This document shows, piece by piece, positions 5,106 through 61,938 of a stretch of DNA of 64,000 nt. Below the pieces are notes generated by a model, which saw only the letters and a list, made by a program, of their open reading frames with translations, was not told the origin of the DNA and did not search any database. Position 1 is the stretch's first letter. The number at the start of each line of letters is the position of its first letter. This DNA comes from Tenrec ecaudatus (Eukaryota > Chordata > Mammalia > Afrosoricida > Tenrecidae), in NCBI RefSeq assembly GCF_050624435.1, contig NC_134546.1, positions 16,515,001-16,579,000 on the forward strand. Direction: 5' to 3'. The position numbers and the translations under genes are program-made.

Positions 5106-5291
5106 AACTCGTTGCTCCGTTCGAGTTCATATTAGTACAAAAAATCTGAAATCTGGACATAGCTTTTCTTCTTCTTCTTTCGGATGCTTGAAAACAACGT
5201 CAACGTTTTACTGTGACCCGGGTGGAGGGTTACAGAGCAGATGGTCAGTTTGGCATTCAAGGGCTCAGACACCTTCTGTTTCTTCTCATTA

Positions 5292-5895
5292 AGACAATCC
5301 CTGGGAGGAGACGAGCCAGTCAGGGCGCAGGGGAGCAACGATGAAACATACAACTTTCCTCTTGTTCTTAAATGCTTCCTCCCCAACCTCCAACCCTACT
5401 ATCATGATCCCAATTCTACCTTGCAAATCTGGCTAGACCAAAGGATGTACAGTGGTACAGATAGCAACTGGAAACACAGGGAATCCAGGACAGATGACTC
5501 CTTCAGGACCAGTGGTGAGAGTGGGGATGCCTGGAGGGTGGAGCGAATGTGGGGTAGGAAGGGGAAACTGATTACAAGAATCTACAGTATAGCCTCCTCC
5601 CTGGGGGAGGGATAGCAGAGAAGAAGGCGGGGGGGGGGGGGGGGAGATGTCAGACAGTGTAATATATGACAAAATAATAATAATTTATGAATGATGAAGG
5701 GTTCATGAGGTAGGGGGGAGTGGGGAGGGAGGGGGGAATGAGCAGCAGATATTAAGGGCTAAAGCAGAAGGCAAATGTTTTGAAAATGATGAGGCCAACA
5801 AATGTACATATGTTCTTGACACAATGGATGTATGTATGGATTGTGATAAGAATTGTAGGAGCCCCCAATAAAATGATTAAATTTAAAAAAAGACA
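5292..5895 (+). mobile_element. Family A retrotransposon 3' end, 604 bp
   Basis: It runs from GGGAGGAGACGAGCCAGTCA through TGTACAGTGGTACAGATAGC, a G-rich purine tract (5620-5750), and ATGTACATATGTTCTTGACA to the terminus GCCCCCAATAAAATGATT followed by an A-rich tail. The AATAAA signal, purine tract and A-tail are like an L1 3' UTR. No coding sequence is visible, so whether it is the end of a LINE or an independent non-autonomous element is open. Confidence 0.75.
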
Positions 5896-8344: not shown

Positions 8345-8925
8345 CTAAAGCTGGCTATGGGGGAAGGGGGGGACACCAGAACTGATTGTGATGATGTATG
8401 TGCAGCTCATTTTATAAGGGATTCAACCATGGCAGTATATGATATTTGATTACTGTATCAAGATAATTACTGAAAAAAAAAGAAACCAAACTTGACAACA
8501 GTGACCATGGTGAAGGACTTGACAACAGTGACCATGGGTGAAGGACTTGACAACAGTGACCATGGGTGAAGGACTTGACAACAGTGACCATAGGTGAAGG
8601 ACTTGATAACAGTGACCATGGGTGAAGGGGGCATTGGGTTTATGCTAATGGTGGAATCACTTGGAAAAGATATAACGGTTGTACACACAAGGAGTATAAC
8701 GAACAGCCCTGAAGTGTACAAGTAGAGGTGGTGGAATTGGAGAATGTTTTGTTGTGTGTGTGTCTGCCACAATTAGAAAAAGAATCACACGTGTAACCAT
8801 GAGTACAGGTAGAATAACATGATCTAGAATGGACTACGGTGACAATTGTGCAACTCTTCTTGATATGATTGAATTATTGAAATGTAGGATGTGTGGATGA
8901 CGTGCTAATAAAACGGCTTAAAAAT
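8345..8925 (+). repeat. L1-type 3' end containing the 28-bp minisatellite
   Basis: ATTGTGCAACTCTTCTTGAT at 8846-8865 and GTGCTAATAAAACGGCTTAA at 8902 resemble an L1 3' UTR, and the same motif recurs at 42380-42480. The minisatellite at 8491-8628 splits it. Confidence 0.4.
8491..8628. repeat. 28-bp minisatellite, five units
   Basis: Five head-to-tail copies of a 28-base unit containing CTTGACAACAGTGACCATGG and GTGAAGGA. The first unit is one base short, the fourth has ATAGG for ATGGG, and the fifth has GATAAC for GACAAC. It lies within a segment that looks like an L1-type 3' end (8345-8925). Confidence 0.9.
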
Positions 8926-12835: not shown

Positions 12836-13009
12836 CAGTGGTTCTCAACCCTCCTCATGCCGCGACCCTTTCATACAGCTCCCCATGTGGTGGGGACCCC
12901 CAAAGCATAAAATCATTTTTGTTGCTACTTCATGACTGTCATTTTGCTCCTGTTATGAATCGGGCAACCCCTGTGAAAGGGGTCGCGACCCCCAGGTTGA
13001 GAACCACTG
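12836..13009 (+). mobile_element. SPIN-like hAT MITE, 174 bp
   Basis: It starts CAGTGGTTCTCAACC and ends GGTTGAGAACCACTG, a perfect 15-bp terminal inverted repeat. The inside matches the other SPIN-like copies (CATGCCGCGACCCTTTCATA, CTGTTATGAATCGGGCAACC, GGGGTCGCGACCCCC). The flanking 8-mers CCTACAAG and CTGTATAG do not match, so the target duplication has decayed or the ends were reworked. Confidence 0.82.
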
Positions 13010-13847: not shown

Positions 13848-14362
<515 letters not shown>

Positions 14363-17066: not shown

Positions 17067-17280
17067 GAGACCCAAAGCCCATCTGTAGACAATGGAACAA
17101 TTCCCCCACAGAGGGGTCACAGGGAAGGGATGCGTCAACCAGGGTGCAGCAAAGCACCGATGAAATACACAATATTCTCTGGTTCCTTGAGGCTTCCTCA
17201 CCCCCACCACCATGACCCCAGTGCTGCCTGTTACTTCAGACTAGAACGAAGTGCGTACACTGCTGTGGCTAAGAGATAAG
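17067..17280 (+). mobile_element. Older family A copy, 5' part (split by nested insertion)
   Basis: CCAAAGCCCATCTGTAGACA and the following sequence align with 42865-43115. The copy is interrupted after TAAGAGCTCAGGA and resumes at 18186. Confidence 0.75.
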
Positions 17281-17291
17281 AGCTCAGGACA

Positions 17292-18174
17292 TGATAGTGG
17301 GGGGGGGGGTGGAGGAAGCATTTAAGAACTAGAGGAAAGTTAAATGTTTCATCATTGCTACCCTGCACCCTGACTGGCTCATCTCCTTCCCATAACCCTT
17401 CAGTAAGGGGTGTCTGGTTGGCTACCAATGGGCTTTGAGTCTCCACTCTGCACTCACCCACATTTTCAATGATATGATTTTGTGTTCCTTGATGTTTGAT
17501 ACCTGATCCCTTCGACACCTCATGGTCACTCAGGCTGGTGTGTTTCTTCCATGTGGGCTTTGTTGCTTCTGAACTAGATGGCCACTTGTTTATCTTCGAG
17601 CCTTTAAGACCCCAGAAGCTATATCTTTTGATAGCTGGGCACCATCAGCTTTCTTCACCACATTTGCTTATGCACACGTTTGTCTTCAGTGATTGTATCA
17701 GGGAGGTGGGCACCCATTGATGTGATTTTTAGAGGATGTACACTGGTACAGATAGCAACTGGAAACACAGGGAATCCAGGACAGATGACTCCTTCAGGAC
17801 CAGCGGTGAGAGTTGTGATGCCTGGGGGGTGGAGGGAGGAGAGAATGTGGGGTAGAAAGGGGAAACTGATTACAAGAATCTAGGTATAGCCTACTCCCTG
17901 GGGGATGGACGGCAGAGAAGAAGGCGGGGAGAGACATAGGACAGTGTAACATATGACAAAATAATAATAATTTATTTATATGAAGGGTTCATGAGGTGGG
18001 AGTGGGGAGGGAGGGGGAAATGAGCAGCAGCTATTAAGGGCTCAAGGAGAAGGCAAATGTTTTGAGAATGATGATGGCAACAAATGTACATATGTTCTTG
18101 ACACAATGGATGTATGTATGGATTGTGATAAGAATTGTAGGAGCCCCCAATAAAATGATTAAAAAAAAAAAAAA
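17292..18174 (+). mobile_element. Family A insertion with 5' inversion, about 883 bp
   Basis: Bases 17292-17732 match family A only as the reverse complement (compare 21870-22300), while 17733-18174 match it in the forward sense and end in GCCCCCAATAAAATGATT plus about 16 A. About 33 bases of the family sequence are missing at the junction. The whole is flanked by AGCTCAGGACA at 17281-17291 and 18175-18185. Inversion of the 5' part with a small deletion at the joint is the twin-priming signature of L1-driven insertion. Confidence 0.82.
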
Positions 18175-20229: not shown

Positions 20230-20800
20230 CAAAGTGTGTTAAAGAAAGCAGATGGTGCCCAGTTATCACCTGGTATAGTGTCTGGGGTCATAAAGGCTGG
20301 CATTCAATCAAGCAGCCATCTAAGTGAGGGGTCACCTAAGTCCACATGAGGAAGCACACCAGCCTGTGGGATCCAGAGATGACAATAACAAAATCCAAGT
20401 ATGACAGGGGAAAATATCCGTGCTTAAATGTGAACACCCACTTTGTAGAAGCTGTGGAGGGCAGTGGGCGCCCCCATCCATCAGCAGAGCATCTAGTCAG
20501 ATTAAGCCTCCAGCAGACCCCTCTGAATCTAGGCGAGGGATCTTTGAACAGCGTTACTATCCAACAGGGATTATTGTAAACTTGATTATGGTGGACTGAA
20601 CCATGGTCTAATATGATACTTGGTCAGTTGACCTCCCTCTTGACCCAACCTGAATTTAGTCAAGGCTTTACGTATTTCTCACTTGCTCCACGATAGAAAT
20701 TTCTTCTCTAGCCTTTTAAATATTGATGGCGGTCTTTTCTTTCTTACTCTTTATTTTTATTTTATATTCTTATTATTTTCTCCTTGAAGTTTTATTTTGA
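20230..20800 (+). repeat. Family A internal fragment
   Basis: AAAGCAGATGGTGCCCAGTT, TGTCTGGGGTCATAAAGGCT and AGGAAGCACACCAGCCTGTG belong to the upstream part of family A (compare 42665-42775 and 52060-52150). A GAACAGCGTTACTATCCAAC block and a T-rich tract follow. No 3' terminus is present. Confidence 0.5.
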
Positions 20801-25668: not shown

Positions 25669-26076
25669 GACAGGCAACACACATCTGCTGGTGCCGGCTT
25701 CATAGAGACCCGTGATAAAGCATCGGTGGAGAGAAAAACAGACTCTTCTTCTCAAAGAGGCCCCGCGTGTGCTGAGCACCTAAGGGCGTAAATGAAAAGC
25801 CATTTTCCCGGAAGGGAGTGGAAGCGCAGGAAACTTTTTGGAATGTATGTTTCCATGTGAAAGGGGACGCGGAGATGTAGGATTGTGAGCCTGCGCTTTC
25901 TTTTTCTCCTTTGCGGGCCAAGAGCTCGGTGGGAGCTGGAGGGGGAGGGCGAGGTGGCGGGGAGGTGGGGGGGGGGGGCGCAGCTCCCGGGGAGGAAGCT
26001 CGGATTTGCAGCGGGACACCAGCCCCCCACCCCGGGCTGGGCGCTGCCGGGCGCGGTCGGGCGTTTGGGAATGGTC

Positions 26077-26088
26077 CGCGCATGCGCA
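26077..26088. promoter_or_regulatory. NRF1-type palindrome CGCGCATGCGCA
   Basis: The sequence fits the NRF1 consensus YGCGCAYGCGCR exactly and is followed 3 bases later by a GC box (CGGGGCGGGA). Both are typical of CpG-island promoters. It lies about 300 bases upstream of the predicted start. Confidence 0.5.
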
Positions 26089-26357
26089 CACGGGGCGGGA
26101 CGCCCAGCACCCTAAAGTCAAACTTCCTCGCTTCTGCGGGACGGAGGCACTGGGCGGCCGGGAAGGGAGCGTGCCAGGCAGAACTGGCCGCTGGTGCGAG
26201 GAGCACCCCACGGCTCGACTCCCAGCCCAGCGTTGCGGCCCGTTCGGGGCGGGAGGCGCCAGGTGCGCTTCGCCCTGGGAGGGATTTTCCGGTCCCGTGG
26301 GCACAGGGACAAGAACTCGGACTCTGTCTCCACCCAAAGTGGGCCGGGCCCGGCCGA

Positions 26358-26365
26358 GATAAAAA
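26358..26365 (+). promoter_or_regulatory. ANXA4: TATA-like box GATAAAAA
   Basis: This A/T run sits inside an otherwise G+C-rich block. If it works as a TATA element, transcription would begin near 26385-26395, giving a first exon of about 50 bases before the donor at 26440. No experimental start can be read from the sequence. Confidence 0.4.
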
Positions 26366-26384
26366 CCCGTTCAGCCCGGAGGGA

Positions 26385-26439
26385 GGAGGGTGTGCGACTT
26401 CGGAGGACACGGCTCTGCACGCTTCCCCGGCGCCGATTG
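26385..26439 (+). other. ANXA4: Predicted ANXA4 exon 1 (5' UTR)
   Basis: The right edge is set by a strong donor, G|GTAAGGAG at 26440, and the left edge only by the spacing from the TATA-like box. No ORF leads from here into exon 2, as expected for a non-coding exon: the start codon is in exon 2. The transcript joining this exon to 50489 is inferred. Confidence 0.45.
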
Positions 26440-26944
26440 GTAAGGAGCTGCCGGCCCTGGAGAGGGGTGCTGGGAGAGGGGGTACCCCAGGCACCTTGCA
26501 AGCGTGCTGCGCCCAGAAGGGTAATCGGGGTGTGGTTTGGGAGTCCTCATCCGGCCAGGGACTGGCTTCTAGGGGACAAGCACGGCCTCCACCCACAGGA
26601 ACGGTCCAGAAAGACCGCCCTACACCGCTTAGGACGCAGTCAGACTACAGCAGTGAATTACACACCTGTGCCAGGCACTGTGCTGGGCTCGGACCTTAAG
26701 AAAAGACTGAGCTCTGGATCTACCCAGGCTGACTTGGCTAAGGTTTACTTGTTTTCTTTCCTTCGCCCTTTAAAAAACTTACAACCGCATTGTTGGTTCC
26801 GGGATAAAGCAGTGCTTGGACCCTGAGAATCTGTTACTGAAGGTCGGCTGTCGATGGCCAGCTGGAGACTTCCGGGGCCAAAAAGGCTATTGAGTTTTAA
26901 TTCTTGGTCTGACTTTAAGTGCCCCCTCTCCCCAATTTGTTGCA

Positions 26945-39345: not shown

Positions 39346-40123
39346 GGATTGGAAAGCAGCTGATCAGACACCCATCGGTCTATTTCTGTATGTTTTATGC
39401 CTGTCTGCCTCCCTTTACCCCAGCGCAGCCCTGTCCTGATTATTGTAGTCTCCGGGGCAGTCAGCACCGTAGCAGCAGAGTCCACGTTGACAGGAGCCGG
39501 CGCACGCTCTCTGATTTGACCTTTCCCTGCTTCGACTGCCACAGGGGAGAGCTGCCGAGAGCAGCGCCCAGTAGCACCCGGGGGAGGCGTGCACAAACGG
39601 GCCCTGTCTGGGCCGTCAGTCACTGGGCCCGCTGTCTGTGTGTGCATATACCTAGCCCTGCAGTGCCCCTCTTACCGGTGGTTGGTGTGACTGGGAAATC
39701 TGAAACTGGGCAAGGTCAGCCCTAGGGGATCCAAACAGTAGTGTGCTTTTTGTCTGGTGGGCCACTGCCTATCTGAGCACAAGTCAGACCTAGCTGTCCA
39801 AGCCGGCCCAGGCTTTGAGTGCAAGCTTTGGATCATCAGGGCAGAGAGCTATTTATGGATTCTCTCTGCCTCACTTTGCCGTAGCCAGAGTGAGAATAAA
39901 CATAGTCAAGTGAGTCATGATCCTTAGACACTGTGGACACTGGCCTTAGCCTCCCACAGAGTAAGTGACACGTCAGTGGGCCAGTCTCTTGAGTAGCCTG
40001 CACTTTTCATTCTTTCATGTTGTGGGCGGGTCAGCCAAGACCCACCCCCCTGGCCTGCGCTAAGCTGGACCTTTGCACAGGCAGGGGAGGGAACCCAATA
40101 GTGCCTGGATGGAATGCTTACAT

Positions 40124-40289
40124 CAGCGGTTCTCAACCTATGGGTCTCGACCCGAATGACCCTTTCACAGGGGTCGCCCGACTCATCAGAGTAGCAAAAT
40201 GACTGATAAAATAACAATGAAAATAATGTTATGGTTCGGGGGTCACCACCACATGAGGAACTGTATGAGTGGGTTGTGGAGAACCTCTG
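40124..40289 (-). mobile_element. SPIN-like hAT MITE, 166 bp, with perfect 8-bp TSD
   Basis: It starts CAGCGGTTCTCAACCTATGG and ends GTTGTGGAGAACCTCTG, so the ends are inverted repeats. It is flanked by GCTTACAT at 40116-40123 and 40290-40297, a perfect 8-bp duplication. The body holds CCCTTTCACAGGGGTC near the left end and a GAGGAACTGTATGAG motif near the right end, the mirror image of the copies at 12836 and 46226. It is an internally deleted, non-autonomous derivative. Confidence 0.87.
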
Positions 40290-40684
40290 GCTTACATCTT
40301 TCTCAGTGGAGCATGGTCATGTGTCCAGCCAGACAGGCCTCCCGCAGAGCCTATCCAGAGCTCTCCCGCCTGTAGGGCTGTGTTGCTGAACTGGGGCAGG
40401 GGTGTGTGAGAGGTAGAAATGGGCTTCTCTCTTCAAAGAGCCAACAGCCTTGTGTGAAACACTTTTGACTGGGTGCCAGCTGTCTGGCCTGTCAAGTCTG
40501 GGCGAGGGAGTCTCTCTGGGTGGTGATTTTGTGTTTGGGCTTTCTGTGGTCCCAGATATGAAGAACAGAATCCGTTTGACTCAGCGGGACAAGTGCTTAT
40601 CTGAGATTCTCTAATTCCATGACTTTTCTAAACGCTTCTAACATCATTGCCGTTCCTAGGACATAATTATACACAACACGTGCA

Positions 40685-44351: not shown

Positions 44352-44515
44352 CAGTTGGCTCTGAACTCTACCTTCCTCATGCTGCAACCCTTTCATACCG
44401 TTCCTCACATGGTGGTGACCCCCCCACCCCCCAAGATAAAATTATTTTTGTTGCTTCTTCATCACTGTCATTTTGCTCCTGTTATGAATCGGGAGACCCC
44501 TGTGAAAGGATCGTT

Positions 44516-44579
<64 letters not shown>

Positions 44580-44607
44580 CTCTCCCCAAAGGGGTCGCGA
44601 TCCACTG
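44352..44607 (+). mobile_element. SPIN-like hAT MITE with a (CA)n expansion inside
   Basis: The body (TTCCTCATGCTGCAACCC, TTTTGTTGCTTCTTCAT, CTGTTATGAATCGGGAGACC) aligns with the copies at 12836 and 46226. The left end is eroded (CAGTTGGCTCTGAAC). After CCTGTGAAAGGATCGTTGGA a (CA) tract of about 30 repeats interrupts the arm before CCCCAAAGGGGTCGCGA. The final inverted repeat is mostly lost, ending in CCACTG. Flanks GAGCAGGA and CGCTAGGA agree at only 4 of 8 bases, so no clean target duplication remains. Confidence 0.75.
44517..44578. repeat. (CA)n microsatellite inside a SPIN-like MITE
   Basis: About 30 CA units lie between GATCGTTGGA and CCCCTCTCCCC, in the arm of the hAT element. Confidence 0.95.
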
Positions 44608-46217: not shown

Positions 46218-46225
46218 CTCTAAAA
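46218..46225. repeat. hAT target-site duplication CTCTAAAA
   Basis: Identical to 46781-46788 on the other side of the transposon. A perfect 8-bp match means the insertion is recent enough for neither copy to have mutated. Confidence 0.9.
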
Positions 46226-46780
46226 CAGTGCTTCTTAACCTTCCTCATGCTGAGACCCTTTCATACAGTTCCTCATGTGGTGGTGACCGCCAACTGTGAA
46301 ATTCTTTTTGTTGCTACTTTATAACTGTAATATTGCTACTGTTATGAATCGTCATGTAAATATCTGATAGGCAGGATGTATTTTCATTGTTACAAAATGA
46401 ACATAAGTAAAGCATAGTGACGAATCACAAAAAACAATGTGTAAATATATAATTATATTGTGAAATATTTATTTCTAATGACAAATCAATGAAATCTTTT
46501 CTTGAAGCATGGTGTAGCATGGGTAACAGTCTTAATATAACAGTAAACTACATTGCTACATTTTGCAAAAATATGCATAAAAAGCCAACATCAGTGTGAA
46601 GATTGAGATAACTTCTTGCTCACCAGATCAGCATACCCGCCTGGAGACAGATAGAGGAGCGGTGTCTAAGAACATCAGAAATACTGGTATGTGTTTTTCT
46701 ATGGTCTTAGGTGACCCTTCTGAGAGAAAAGGCTTCTTTGACCCCCAAAGGGGTCAGGACGCACAGGCTGAGAACCGCTG
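46226..46780 (+). mobile_element. SPIN-like hAT transposon, 555 bp, with perfect 8-bp TSD
   Basis: The left end CAGTGCTTCTTAACC and right end GGCTGAGAACCGCTG are imperfect inverted repeats of the type CAGYGGTTCTCAACC. The element is flanked by CTCTAAAA on both sides (46218-46225 and 46781-46788), the 8-bp duplication made by hAT transposases. The interior is AT-rich and has no transposase ORF, so it is non-autonomous. The right end carries CCCCCAAAGGGGTC, as in SPIN elements. The interior resembles a hAT repeat I remember from rodents and other mammals. The SPIN assignment rests on recall of the terminal consensus. Confidence 0.85.
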
Positions 46781-47559
46781 CTCTAAAACAATGTCTTATA
46801 AACGTCAAGGGTCGTTGAAAAGCCCGTGGTCACAGTTCTTCCTCCTCTGACCCATGAGTCAGCTTGGACTTGCTGGAAACCGGGCTGGCTTATTTGGTGG
46901 GGACGGTTGTCGAGGGCCAGGTGTTGTGCCGGGAGGCATTGGCCTGGGCTCCTTTCATATGCATAATCTGGTTTCTAGTGGAAGAATCAAGGGGCGCCCT
47001 TTTCTGCATCGATTTCTAGAATCCACGTAGACATCACTTTAGAACTAGCAAGGAAAAATCCAGCGGCCGTCTCTCTATAAATGGACTTTTGCTGTGTGCT
47101 GTCCAAGTTTCCAACCAACTGGCCAGAAGAACCCAGTGTTCAAGTATGAACGTTCTTTTCCTGCGGTCAGACACTTTCGGCTCACTGAATAATAACTCTC
47201 AGTATTTCCAGGAGGCTTTGCTCAAGTACTCTTCCCACTTACTGGCTTGGGGAAAGGGGTGGAGATACTGATATAAAAGGCTGGCTTTGGGGTGAGGTGC
47301 GGGGAGGAGGGGAGACAGAGCCATCGATTCTAAAAGCCATGTCACCGGGTTTGCCCGGCAATCAGCAGCCACTCAGTCAGTTCACCTCTCCTATGAGTCA
47401 CACGTCGGCATCTGGATACATTTGGTGAGTCATAGGATGTGGACCAGGGCCTCAGATGAAGGCGTGCCCACGACCAATGAAAGGGGAAAGAGCTCCAGCA
47501 TGACTCCCCTAGTGCATTTTGGGAAAATGAGAGGGAGGGAGCACCACGGCAGATGGCCC

Positions 47560-48890: not shown

Positions 48891-49217
48891 CGCTGTGTTT
48901 GTCACTGGCGATGTAAGTCTGCGGTGAAGGAGGGGGAACCGTGGGAGTATGGAGTGGGGCCTGCGGAGAGCTGGAAAATGAAGAGAGAATGTATCCAACA
49001 TGGCTCAGGTGTCAGTAAAGTGAGTGAAGAAGGATTTTGTTATTCTGGGGAGTTACCAGAAAGTGCTGCTTGGTAGATAGGGTTGTGTAGGCCAGTGATT
49101 TCAAACTACTGTAAAACGTGTATCTTAGGAATCTTCTTAAAATGCAGAGGTTAAGGTCCTTAGGTAGGTCTGAGGTGGTGCCTGAAAGTCTGCATTTTTA
49201 ACAAGCTCCCAATCTCT

Positions 49218-57552: not shown

Positions 57553-57640
57553 GGAACCAAAGGAGGCACCGTCAAGGCTGCGTCAGGCTTCAGCGCCCTG
57601 GACGATGCCCAGGCCCTGAGGAAGGCCATGAAAGGTCTCG
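57553..57640 (+). CDS. ANXA4: ANXA4 exon 3: residues 4-32, N-terminal tail and start of repeat I
   Basis: The acceptor is GCACGCAG at 57545-57552 and the donor is CTCG|GTGAGT at 57641. The 88-bp exon reads GTKGGTVKAASGF, then helix A of annexin repeat I, ending in KGL plus the first base of Gly33. Residue 4 is Gly (GGA), where human, as I recall it, has Ala. The Thr-Lys pair after it is the region reported as a protein kinase C site in annexin A4 (family knowledge). Length and phase (0 in, 1 out) match other annexins. Confidence 0.95.
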
Positions 57641-57824
57641 GTGAGTGTCCCACCAGAGGAGAATCCTCCCTTGTGTGGGCGTTGTCCAGCAAAGACCCCC
57701 CGGTTGGTCACTTGCAGTGGGAGGGGCCCAGAGGAGGGAGGGTGTCCAGAGACTTGCCGATTGCAGACATACCTCGCCCACTGTTCCCTGTGAGTTGGTC
57801 TCACGCTGATAAAGTACAGCCGCG

Positions 57825-57876
57825 GGACACAGATTGGGTGGGAGGGCAGCAGGACACAGATTGGGTGGGAGGGCAG
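57825..57876. repeat. 25-bp exact tandem duplication in ANXA4 intron 3
   Basis: The 25 bases at 57825-57849 (GGACACAGATTGGGTGGGAG and five more) recur exactly at 57852-57876, two bases later. Confidence 0.92.
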
Positions 57877-57919
57877 GAGGCGTTCATTTGGCTGCAGTTT
57901 TCTTTTTCGTGTACTGGGT

Positions 57920-58125
57920 CCCTGATGGGCTCGTGGGTCGTGGTTACTCATTGGGCTGCTAACTGCAAGGCCAGCCATTCAAATCCCCCATCGGCCCTGT
58001 GGGAGGAAGTCGAGGCTCTAGCCCATCAAGAGTGACGGTCTCGGAAACTCACAGGGGCGGTGCCCCCGTGTCCTCCAGAGTCACTGTGAGTCGGCATCGA
58101 CCGGAAGCAGCGAGCTGGTTTTTGC
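57920..58125 (+). repeat. AfroSINE in ANXA4 intron 3
   Basis: TCATTGGGCTGCTAACTGCA, GGTCTCGGAAACTCACAGGG and GTGAGTCGGCATCGACCGGA. Confidence 0.75.
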
Positions 58126-58205
58126 TGACGAGAAAGCTGGGGTTCAGGGAGGTGGGCCCACGGTCACAACTAGTCAGTTCTAGAGTAAGGATCCCCTTTC
58201 AGCAG
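58125..58205 (+). repeat. MIR fragment in ANXA4 intron 3
   Basis: GGTTCAGGGAGGTGGGCCCA and CACAACTAGTCAGTTCTAGA. Confidence 0.4.
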
Positions 58206-58525
58206 TGTGATTCCAGAGCTGGAGCCGAGGCCTCCCCGTACCCTGCTCTCAAATGCCCACATCTGAGCGGAACACTGTCCCCATCCAGGTGCCCCTCTCA
58301 TTTGCCTCCTCAGCAGTAACATGCAAACTATGCCGTGCCTCCGTGTGTGCAGGGTCACCATCGTTTGCTGAGATTTCATAGCAAGCGCCTGTAGTTCAGA
58401 AAGTGGGCCGCGTGGCCTTTGAACTCTCCAGGGAGGAGCTTGTGTTTGGGTTACCCCAGCGGCTGCTGAGGAAACGGCCTCTCTCGGTCACGGTCACGCT
58501 CACCGCCTCTGCTCTGCTCCCCCAG

Positions 58526-58620
58526 GCACCGACGAAGATGCCATTATCAGTGTCCTGGCCTACCGGAACATTGCCCAGCGCCAGGAAATCAGATCAGCCT
58601 ACAAGTCCACCATCGGCAGG
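58526..58620 (+). CDS. ANXA4: ANXA4 exon 4: residues 33-64, repeat I type II Ca2+-loop
   Basis: The acceptor is CTCCCCCAG at 58517-58525 and the donor is CAGG|GTAGGC at 58621. The 95-bp exon completes the G-T-D-E loop of repeat I (KGLGTDE across the exon junction), whose backbone carbonyls bind Ca2+ in the annexin family. It continues through helices B and C (AIISVLAYRN and QRQEIRSAYKS) and ends with IGR at a codon boundary. The sequence is close to human ANXA4 throughout, with no stop or frameshift. Confidence 0.95.
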
Positions 58621-59582
58621 GTAGGCCACCGTCTCTTCTCTGCGGTCAGCCTGGCATGATCTTCAGCCTGGGGTTTGCGGGACGCCGGGCCAGCTCGTGG
58701 GCCAGGCCCTGAATGAGGAAGCTTGTGATATAAACATCCCAGTCGAGGCAGCAATGACATTTTAAAAACTCTGATGGAATATGGGCTCGTCCAGATAAAA
58801 AGTGGCCTACTTAAAGACTGGCTGGTCTTCTGACGGTGGTCTGGTCGTGTAGTTCTAGAAGGAAACATGACTGTATCTCTTTAGAAGGTAGCCAGCTCTT
58901 GGGGCAAATAGTTACATTTCTTTTTTAAGAACGGAGCCTCAAAAAAATGAGATCTGAAGACCCTGTGTCCAAATGGAGAACACCCACAGGTCTAGGATCA
59001 TAACTAAAAGCCTTATCCTTGTGTCTAGACCAACCGAAAAGTAGACAGAAGGTGCCCTCCGAGCCCGGGCTGCTGCGACACAAATTCCACACGTGACTGG
59101 CTTTAAAAAGCGGAAATTTATTTGCACGAAGTTTAAATCCAAATCGGGGTCCTGGCCCTGCCCTTTCCTCCCCAGGTGTGCCCCAGTCCCTTGGTGATTC
59201 TCATGTGCCTTTATCCCGGTGTCGAATCAGCTCTTTTTATAACTCGAAGTGATGAGGTTTAGGACCCACCTTCACTAACAGGACCGCCCTAACATCACCA
59301 AGGTCCTTGGGTGCCACACACCGTTCCATGCAGCCAAAAGGTTGGTGGGACAGTGCCCCCCAGAAGCCCCTCAGGAGACAGTCCTGGGCTGTGTGTTTGA
59401 TACATGACAGCCTGGACTGTCCTAGCCAGCAGTTCGGCTCTGCATGCAGGGTGCTGTGACAAGTCAGCATGGACTCAGTGGACATTCTTAACGACAATGT
59501 GAAAAAGAGAGTCCTATTCCCAAGTGGGTGACACCACAGACAGGTCCTAGCACACATTCCGGTGGGTGCAAGTCAAATCGTA

Positions 59583-59792
59583 ACCAAACCGAACCCAGCC
59601 AGCCTCAGTGCCATTGAGTTGGTGCCGACTCATGGCATCCCTGGAGGACAGGGTAGAACTGCCCCGTGGGGTCCGAGACGGTAACTCTTTCCGGAGGAGA
59701 AAGCCCCGTCTTTCTCTCAGAGCAGCTGGTGGTTCCTAACTGCTGACGCATGGCTAGCAGCCCGACGCTTCAACACTATACCTGCAGGGCTC
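59583..59792 (-). repeat. AfroSINE, minus strand, in ANXA4 intron 4
   Basis: GGTGCCGACTCATGGCATCC and GAGGACAGGGTAGAACTGCC. Confidence 0.75.
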
Positions 59793-60683
59793 CCCAGTCC
59801 CTAGCAGGTACTGGCTAAAGAAGTTCTGTCATGTCCCGTCTCTAGAAACACTCTACAGCTACTAGCAATGTCTTAGGTAAATATAATCAGGACAGGTCAT
59901 TGCATGAGACAAATGCAGTGAGGTCACCCTCGACAAACTTTCCTTCTTGTGACCCCTTTGCACCCTTAGATTAATGCGGGCCCCAAAGAGCATTGTTTTT
60001 GTGGGTTCTAATGATATTTAGCTAAATGTGAGATAAAAATTGAGAACATTAATATATATACATTTGAATTTATTATTAAAAATAGCAAACCCATTACCTA
60101 TTAATATAAATAAAACAGATATTAAAAGAACAATCGACTCCAAAGCAGAAATTTTTAAAATTAGGCGAGGAGATTGGCCTTGTCCTCCAAATTTTATAAA
60201 TCTCCTTAATAGGAGGCATGGCACATGTCTCGCTTCGTCGAAGGCAGCCAGCCGAGCTGTGCTAGCCGTTTCTGCCTTCCCGTCGTTGGGATATGTTGTC
60301 TCAGCTGCACTGTCTGAGGAAACCTGGCCTCGGTAGAGCAGGTATTTGGGGAAGGAGAGTGCTTTCAGCCCTTTTCAGATGTCAAGTCGTCTTTGGAAAC
60401 TGCGCTGTACACTCGCGAGAGGATGCCAGTGCACCGCGGAAGAATCTTGGCGTTATTGTGTATCCTATGTCTTTGGTAGGAAAACAGTTCTGACCTTAGA
60501 GACCCCTTCGGCATCCTGAGGCTGCAGCTCACACTTGGAGCTTGGCTACCGTACGCTCTTGCCCCTAACAGCCTGCTTCTGTCGGGATCCCAACCCCTGG
60601 GGGCAGCTCTCCGTGGTCCCCGTGAGTCAGAACGGGTCTCGGTGTTGTGGACGCACTGGAGCCCGAGTCTGCTTGTGTTGCAG

Positions 60684-60797
60684 GACCTGATAGACGACCT
60701 GAAGTCGGAGCTGAGTGGCAACTTCGAGAAGGTGATCGTGGGGATGATGATGCCCACCGTGCAGTACGACGTGAAGGAGCTGAACAGGGCCATGAAG
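60684..60797 (+). CDS. ANXA4: ANXA4 exon 5: residues 65-102, repeat I helices D-E
   Basis: The acceptor is TGTGTTGCAG at 60674-60683 and the donor is ATGAAG|GTGGGC at 60798. The 114-bp exon (38 codons, phase 0 to 0) reads [20 protein letters not shown], then a linker into repeat II ending in RAMK. Glu73 in the KSELSG motif is the acidic residue that caps the repeat I Ca2+ site in annexins, about 38-40 residues after the GTD loop. Three consecutive Met residues occur at 85-87. Confidence 0.95.
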
Positions 60798-60904
60798 GTG
60801 GGCACGCCTCTCAGCCTGCTCCCCGACACGCCCTGGCGGCAGCCTCTCAGAGAGGAAAGGGTCCCCTGCGTTTATGACACCTTAACTTACCACACGACAC
60901 TCTC

Positions 60905-61103
60905 CAAAACACACCCATGGCCAGCGAGTTGATCCTCACAGCGACCCTAGAGGACAGAGTACAACTGTCCTGTAAGTGTCCGAGGCTGCAAATCCTTCTG
61001 GGAACAGAAAGCTTCATCTTTCTTCCGTAGAGCGGCTGGTATGCTTGGCTCCCCAAGCTTGGGGTTAGCAGCCCAGTGCTTAACCCTATGCACCACCAGA
61101 CTC
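60905..61103 (-). repeat. AfroSINE, minus strand, in ANXA4 intron 5
   Basis: CCCTAGAGGACAGAGTACAA and TGCACCACCAGACTCC. Confidence 0.72.
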
Positions 61104-61117
61104 CTTACCTTATACCG

Positions 61118-61325
61118 TCAACCAAACTCCCGGCCATCGAGCAGATTCTGAGACATAGCAGCCCTACCTGACAGGGTAGGACTGCCGCTGTGGGTTTGGA
61201 AGTTGTCAGGTTTACCAGGAGCAGACAGCCTCATCTTTTTCCCTCAGAGTGGCCGGTGTGCTTGAACCACCAACCTTGAGGTCTCCTGGTTGCATCGTAT
61301 TGTAATCATTAAGCTATGGGATCAT
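61118..61325 (-). repeat. AfroSINE, minus strand, in ANXA4 intron 5
   Basis: ACCAAACTCCCGGCCATCGA and CCTGACAGGGTAGGACTGCC. In tandem with the previous copy. Confidence 0.72.
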
Positions 61326-61780
61326 TTGCTCTGCCTGTGTTTCGGGAAGAAAGTATTAGAGCAGTACATCTGGTGCAGTTCCAGAAAGTTTGTGTTAGCT
61401 AATTTTGACTAACACCCTGGGGGCCTTCAGGTCCCCTGTAGGCTTAGAACTGGCTCAAAAGGATTCTCAGCCTCCACAGGTGACCCACCCACAGTGCACT
61501 AGCCCAAGGCCTGCTGGTTTGTAATGACCAACCAGGAAATCAAACATAGCTCCCTTCCTCAGGCAAAATCTGCTGGCAAAGACTTTGTTGGGGCTTTGCT
61601 TTCTCAGAGTCCAGCCCCAAACCATCCCTGAGGGAGAGTGTTTATCAATGATTCCTGTTAACATGTTTGATAAACTTGTTAGAACGCAGAGGGTTACCTT
61701 GCTCCTCTGCGGATTCCTTGTTGCGCCCCTCTGCACATGGGGGCCCAGCACTGTGAATGGGCTCTGTGTTTCGTGTGTAG

Positions 61781-61871
61781 GGAGCTGGCACGGACGAGGG
61801 CTGCCTGATTGAGATCCTGGCCTCCAGGTCCACCGATGAGATCCGCCGCATCAAAGAGACCTACCAGCGAC
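61781..61871 (+). CDS. ANXA4: ANXA4 exon 6: residues 103-132, repeat II Ca2+-loop
   Basis: The acceptor is TTTCGTGTGTAG at 61769-61780 and the donor is GCGAC|GTATGT at 61872. The 91-bp exon begins GAGTDEG, the repeat II GXGTD loop (residues 103-109 with Lys102 from exon 5), then CLIEILASRSTDEIRRIKETYQR. It leaves one base (C) of the Gln133 codon for the next exon. A 91-bp exon with this phase is a fixed feature of vertebrate annexins. Confidence 0.95.
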
Positions 61872-61938
61872 GTATGTAACGTGGGCAGTGGCCCTGGCTA
61901 AGGCGCCACCAGATTTGAGGGCAAGACTAGCAGGGTGG

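Follow-up and report, generated by a model that had tools for sequence, protein, structure and literature searches.

With high probability, positions 46226–46780 hold a fossil SPIN transposon, non-autonomous and belonging to the Buster group of the hAT superfamily, in the genome of an afrotherian. It lies in a window of 64,000 nt from Tenrec ecaudatus, which is the whole stretch of DNA analysed here. The element and its flanks are the following:

46218–46225, strand not applicable: left target-site duplication, CTCTAAAA, which fits nnnTAnnn (flank sequence)
46226–46780, + strand: 555-bp non-autonomous hAT element, long form, very probably of SPIN type, with terminal inverted repeats (TIRs) at 46226–46240 and 46766–46780
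46781–46788, strand not applicable: right target-site duplication, CTCTAAAA (flank sequence)

hAT elements typically have an 8-bp duplication and CAG...CTG ends. Here the end sequences are CAGTGCTTCTTAACC at 46226 and GGCTGAGAACCGCTG at 46780: short terminal inverted repeats starting with CAG, which agree in 12 of 16 bases. The same 8-bp sequence, CTCTAAAA, is found on both flanks. The direct repeat around the element spans 10 bases, not just 8, because the first two bases of the element (CA) happen to equal the CA of the right flank. For two 8-mers drawn at random from the window, the probability of being identical is 3.0e-5. Identical 8-mers at a spacing of 563 bases are found at only 6 of 63,400 window positions, and we read three of these six as the 10-bp repeat of the element itself. 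Such a match by chance at the exact spacing is rare, therefore the CTCTAAAA duplication is real. A preliminary description, made from the letters of the window, had claimed hAT-like ends and an exact 8-bp duplication at 46226–46780: Both are confirmed at these positions.

Three further copies in the window had been overlooked in the preliminary description. They were detected by BLAST of the element against the window, which gives three places with E 0.008 or better. A profile made from the four copies recovers the same four (E 2e-57 to 7e-46, the copies themselves having built the profile). These sister copies, all supported by BLAST, profile and alignment, and the duplication around one of them are the following:

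12836–13009, + strand: short-form copy, 174 bp, both ends kept, without a recognisable 8-bp duplication
40116–40123, strand not applicable: target-site duplication of the 40124–40289 copy, ATGTAAGC on the strand of the copy (flank sequence)
40124–40289, − strand: short-form copy of 166 bp, in which the alignment shows a 14-base gap close to the left end
40290–40297, strand not applicable: target-site duplication of the 40124–40289 copy, ATGTAAGC on the strand of the copy (flank sequence)
about 44366–44605, + strand: decayed short-form copy, ends lost, broken by (CA)n

Perfect 8-bp duplications are thus present in two of the four window copies, 46226–46780 and 40124–40289. A duplication was also sought at the flanks of the 12836–13009 copy (CCTACAAG / CTGTATAG) and was not found. 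If up to 3 mismatches are allowed, the motif of the ends, GGTTGAGAACCGCTG, appears 9 times in the window, while 1.7 are expected, and six of these nine matches are the ends of the element and of two sister copies. The earlier claim of a real hAT insertion is upheld by the ends, the duplication and the sister copies. BLAST of the element also gave four short window matches (14–29 bp, E 0.35), which have been set aside as chance, as has a profile match at 20367–20327 (E 0.24, with the internal segment included in the profile). We should also note that a (CA)30 microsatellite at 44518–44577 has grown inside the decayed SPIN-type copy at 44366–44605.

The long copy and the three short ones differ in an internal segment, as seen in the alignment:

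46352–46708, + strand: internal segment of about 357 bp, which the long copy has and the three short copies lack

In the three short copies, ...TCG runs straight into GG..ACCCCTGTGAAAG, at the place where the long copy has about 357 extra bases. The deletion junction is found after ATCG, and the alignment places its 3' breakpoint within one or two bases. The junction ATCG/GG is common to the three short copies, one of which has a G instead of the second A of the preceding motif. A single junction in three short copies suggests, from the sequences compared, that one deleted element was amplified. No second copy of the 357-bp internal segment was found within the window, either by BLAST or with the profile. 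We consider it quite unlikely that the 555-bp long form represents a non-autonomous subfamily related to SPIN and not yet described, or else a sister lineage of hAT which tenrecs acquired separately.

Stop-to-stop open reading frames of at least 20 amino acids which overlap 46226–46780 number 24, the longest of them (89 amino acids) extending past the element. A Pfam scan of all 24 frames did not find a transposase domain in any of them, and for this reason a coding potential of the element has been rejected. One sub-threshold match, DUF4880 (E 0.079), corresponds to a frame of 22 amino acids and is taken as chance. The long copy thus is also non-autonomous, and its transposase would have to come from elsewhere.

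When compared with the majority consensus of the four copies, the K2P distance of 46226–46780 is 0.130 (21 differences over 176 compared columns), the other three have distances of 0.075, 0.121 and 0.068, and this four-copy consensus understates divergence. Pairwise distances among the four copies range from 0.141 to 0.308. The ends of the element, compared with the best sister-copy ends, have 2 changes in 15 bases at the left and 1 in 15 at the right. Given the consensus distance of 0.130 and the altered ends, the copy is therefore moderately decayed. The preliminary description had considered it hardly decayed, which does not agree with a 13% K2P distance from the consensus and 3 changes in 30 terminal bases. 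As a scale, OposCharlie1 (OC1), a transposon discussed below, has an average distance of 8.1% from its consensus in tenrec (PMC3621081).

The SPIN name is very likely for this element. A provisional SPIN/URR1-like sequence, composed by us and not taken from a library, is 89.5% identical to the element at its left end, over 153 bp, and 81% at its right end, over 80 bp, and the left alignment extends 27 bp past the short-form breakpoint. The same provisional sequence matches all four copies, with 79–90% on the larger pieces. It was composed with the letters of the element already known, and its middle part is a hybrid that mixes them in, so this comparison is a lead, not an independent test. The SPIN-like character claimed earlier is retained as very likely, on a comparison limited to this provisional sequence. 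The target sites point in the same direction. The two perfect duplications, CTC-TA-AAA and ATG-TA-AGC, both have the nnnTAnnn pattern of the Buster group. TA makes up 4.5% of the dinucleotides in the window, so a central TA in both duplications would appear by chance with a probability of about 0.002, from very small numbers. Two passages in PMC3499496 give nnnTAnnn as the target rule of TcBuster and group SPIN in the Buster family. The sequence directly shows the ends, the duplication, the sister copies with their common junction, the decay and the lack of a transposase domain. We infer the name SPIN, the host, mobilisation in trans and a horizontal origin for the family.

Other collections were also searched. 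Exact-pattern scans of viral and genome contigs, and BLAST against plasmids and phages, gave no related copy in these non-animal collections. They do not correspond to animal genomes, so this result says nothing on the distribution of the family. A literature search for a SPIN reference by sequence fragment gave only unrelated titles (hepatitis C virus, Asian citrus psyllid, a viral protein).

The element might instead belong to a different hAT family, lineage-specific or spread horizontally, such as OposCharlie1 (OC1). This would change the name of the family and leave the mechanism of insertion as it is. hAT ends of this kind are common to many families. Tenrec also contains such families: A table in PMC3621081 counts 6837 tenrec copies of OC1, likewise a DNA transposon spread by horizontal transfer, at an average distance of 8.1% from its consensus, and further hATs also transferred to tenrec are mentioned in a passage in PMC5857283. 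Against this reading, the provisional SPIN/URR1-like sequence matches both end regions of 46226–46780, and OC1 would have a different end sequence. We give it a very low probability.

It is still harder to accept an old pan-placental hAT-Charlie relic of the MER5/MER20 type, common to elephant and other mammals, a reading that we consider highly improbable. The ends of 46226–46780 do resemble the general Charlie pattern. However, provisional MER20 and MER5A consensuses, the only two tried, do not match the element at E 1e-3, and a relic of this type has been rejected on this basis. Distances of 7–13% K2P from the window consensus appear too young for such a relic, and the same may be said of perfect duplications in two of four copies, but a consensus made from four copies underestimates divergence, and pairwise values go up to 0.31. 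The best match to an old pan-mammalian hAT, which the preliminary description had named as evidence against itself, is unlikely, from the two consensuses tried. Elsewhere in the window, 48 bp at 49164–49211 match the provisional MER5A consensus (83%) and may be a hAT relic of greater age.

Finally, a chance resemblance or an assembly artefact, without any insertion, has a practically negligible probability and is refuted by the sister copies and by their ends and duplication: These copies carry the same ends as 46226–46780, and the chance of finding the same 8-mer on both flanks is close to 3e-5. Nothing in particular speaks for this reading.

If the element is a SPIN copy, as we prefer, its insertion may be described as follows. 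SPIN transposase produced at another place in the genome would have recognised the TIRs of an internally deleted copy and moved this copy by cut-and-paste. At a central TA it would have made cuts in the target staggered by 8 bp, and gap repair would have left the CTCTAAAA duplication. The copy, without coding capacity, would have been mutating since its insertion, presumably without selection.

The rest of the window allows us to place the element. Residues 3–31 of annexin A4 are encoded at about 57,556–57,642 on the + strand (best match Annexin A4, 9ga6, E 8.4e-14). An exon near 60.7 kb (60.69), also on the + strand, matches Annexin A4 chains (E 7e-19), and it also matches Annexin VI (E 4e-23), which is longer and is matched in two stretches. 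Two more exons, one near 58.53 kb and one near 61.80 kb, are presumably part of annexin A4, to which we assign them by provisional annexin motifs. Annexin A4 exons span 57556–61880 and anchor the window to the ANXA4 locus. A CpG-rich stretch is found at 26001–26500 (GC 0.70, CpG observed/expected 0.8), a candidate promoter, possibly that of ANXA4. Downstream of the element at 46226–46780, the first ANXA4 coding exon found is about 10.8 kb away from its end, and upstream of it is the CpG-rich stretch at 26.0–26.5 kb, so the element probably sits in ANXA4 intron 1.

Some other features are present. At 13962–14321 there is an intron-less, retrocopy-like frame of uS10, open for 119 amino acids (Pfam Ribosomal_S10, E 1.5e-29), which we take to be ribosomal protein S20 in its full-length form. 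A minisatellite with a 28-bp unit is found at 8490–8628, with 5 copies and 96% matches. The regions 5217–5615 and 17231–17644 are on opposite strands, their translations both contain GSNDET(Y/F)NFPLVLKCFL, and they correspond to a dispersed repeat. tRNA and Rfam scans of the whole window did not find anything.

AfroSINE-like repeats are abundant in the window. A provisional AfroSINE consensus has 24 BLAST matches, of which some are fragments of a single copy, whereas five shuffled windows give no match. The provisional AfroSINE 3' end gives 7 matches, while 0.04 are expected. The original SPIN report is said to have found nearly 100,000 copies in tenrec, and with such a number it would be no surprise to see several copies in 64 kb. 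As for the hosts, a passage in PMC5857283 dates the arrival of SPIN to 15–46 Mya and names as its recipients galago, murine rodents, opossum, tenrec and vespertilionid bats. SPIN together with AfroSINEs makes a tenrec the probable host. It had been suggested that a SPIN element beside AfroSINEs would single out tenrecs within Afrotheria. Tenrec is indeed named as a SPIN host in that passage, in agreement with the suggestion, but the passage is silent on other afrotherians lacking SPIN.

In summary, 46226–46780 is an ordinary member of a family described in print, and an ordinary example of a published case of horizontal transfer. On its own it has little importance. The insertion near ANXA4 is nevertheless clean, its empty site can be predicted exactly, and it could be used as a presence/absence marker for tenrecs and other afrotherians.

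Several known systems may be compared with this element. The closest ones are SPIN_NA_1_Et and SPIN_NA_6_Et, whose suffix _Et we read as Echinops telfairi. Going by the traits of the family, they would share with our copies the hAT ends, an 8-bp duplication with a central TA and the presence of short internally deleted derivatives in several copies. The probable host is a further likeness. On the other hand, the long form with its 357-bp segment is not assigned to any named subfamily. SPIN_NA_1_Et is named in a passage in PMC3183009. SPIN_NA_6_Et is named in a table in PMC3017861, where the genus appears as Echinops, mislabelled as a plant, and the same table also names URR1_Xt of Xenopus. URR1, a rodent element, is also similar: The provisional URR1/SPIN-like sequence aligns with 79–90% identity to the larger pieces of all four copies. 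The internal deletion of URR1 would be a different one. OposCharlie1 resembles our element in being a horizontally transferred DNA transposon in tenrec (passage in PMC3621081), and would differ from it in its end sequence. TcBuster, the Tribolium member of the Buster group, has the same 8-bp target duplication, nnnTAnnn (passage in PMC3499496). It is an active insect element, whereas 46226–46780 is a non-coding fossil in a mammal.
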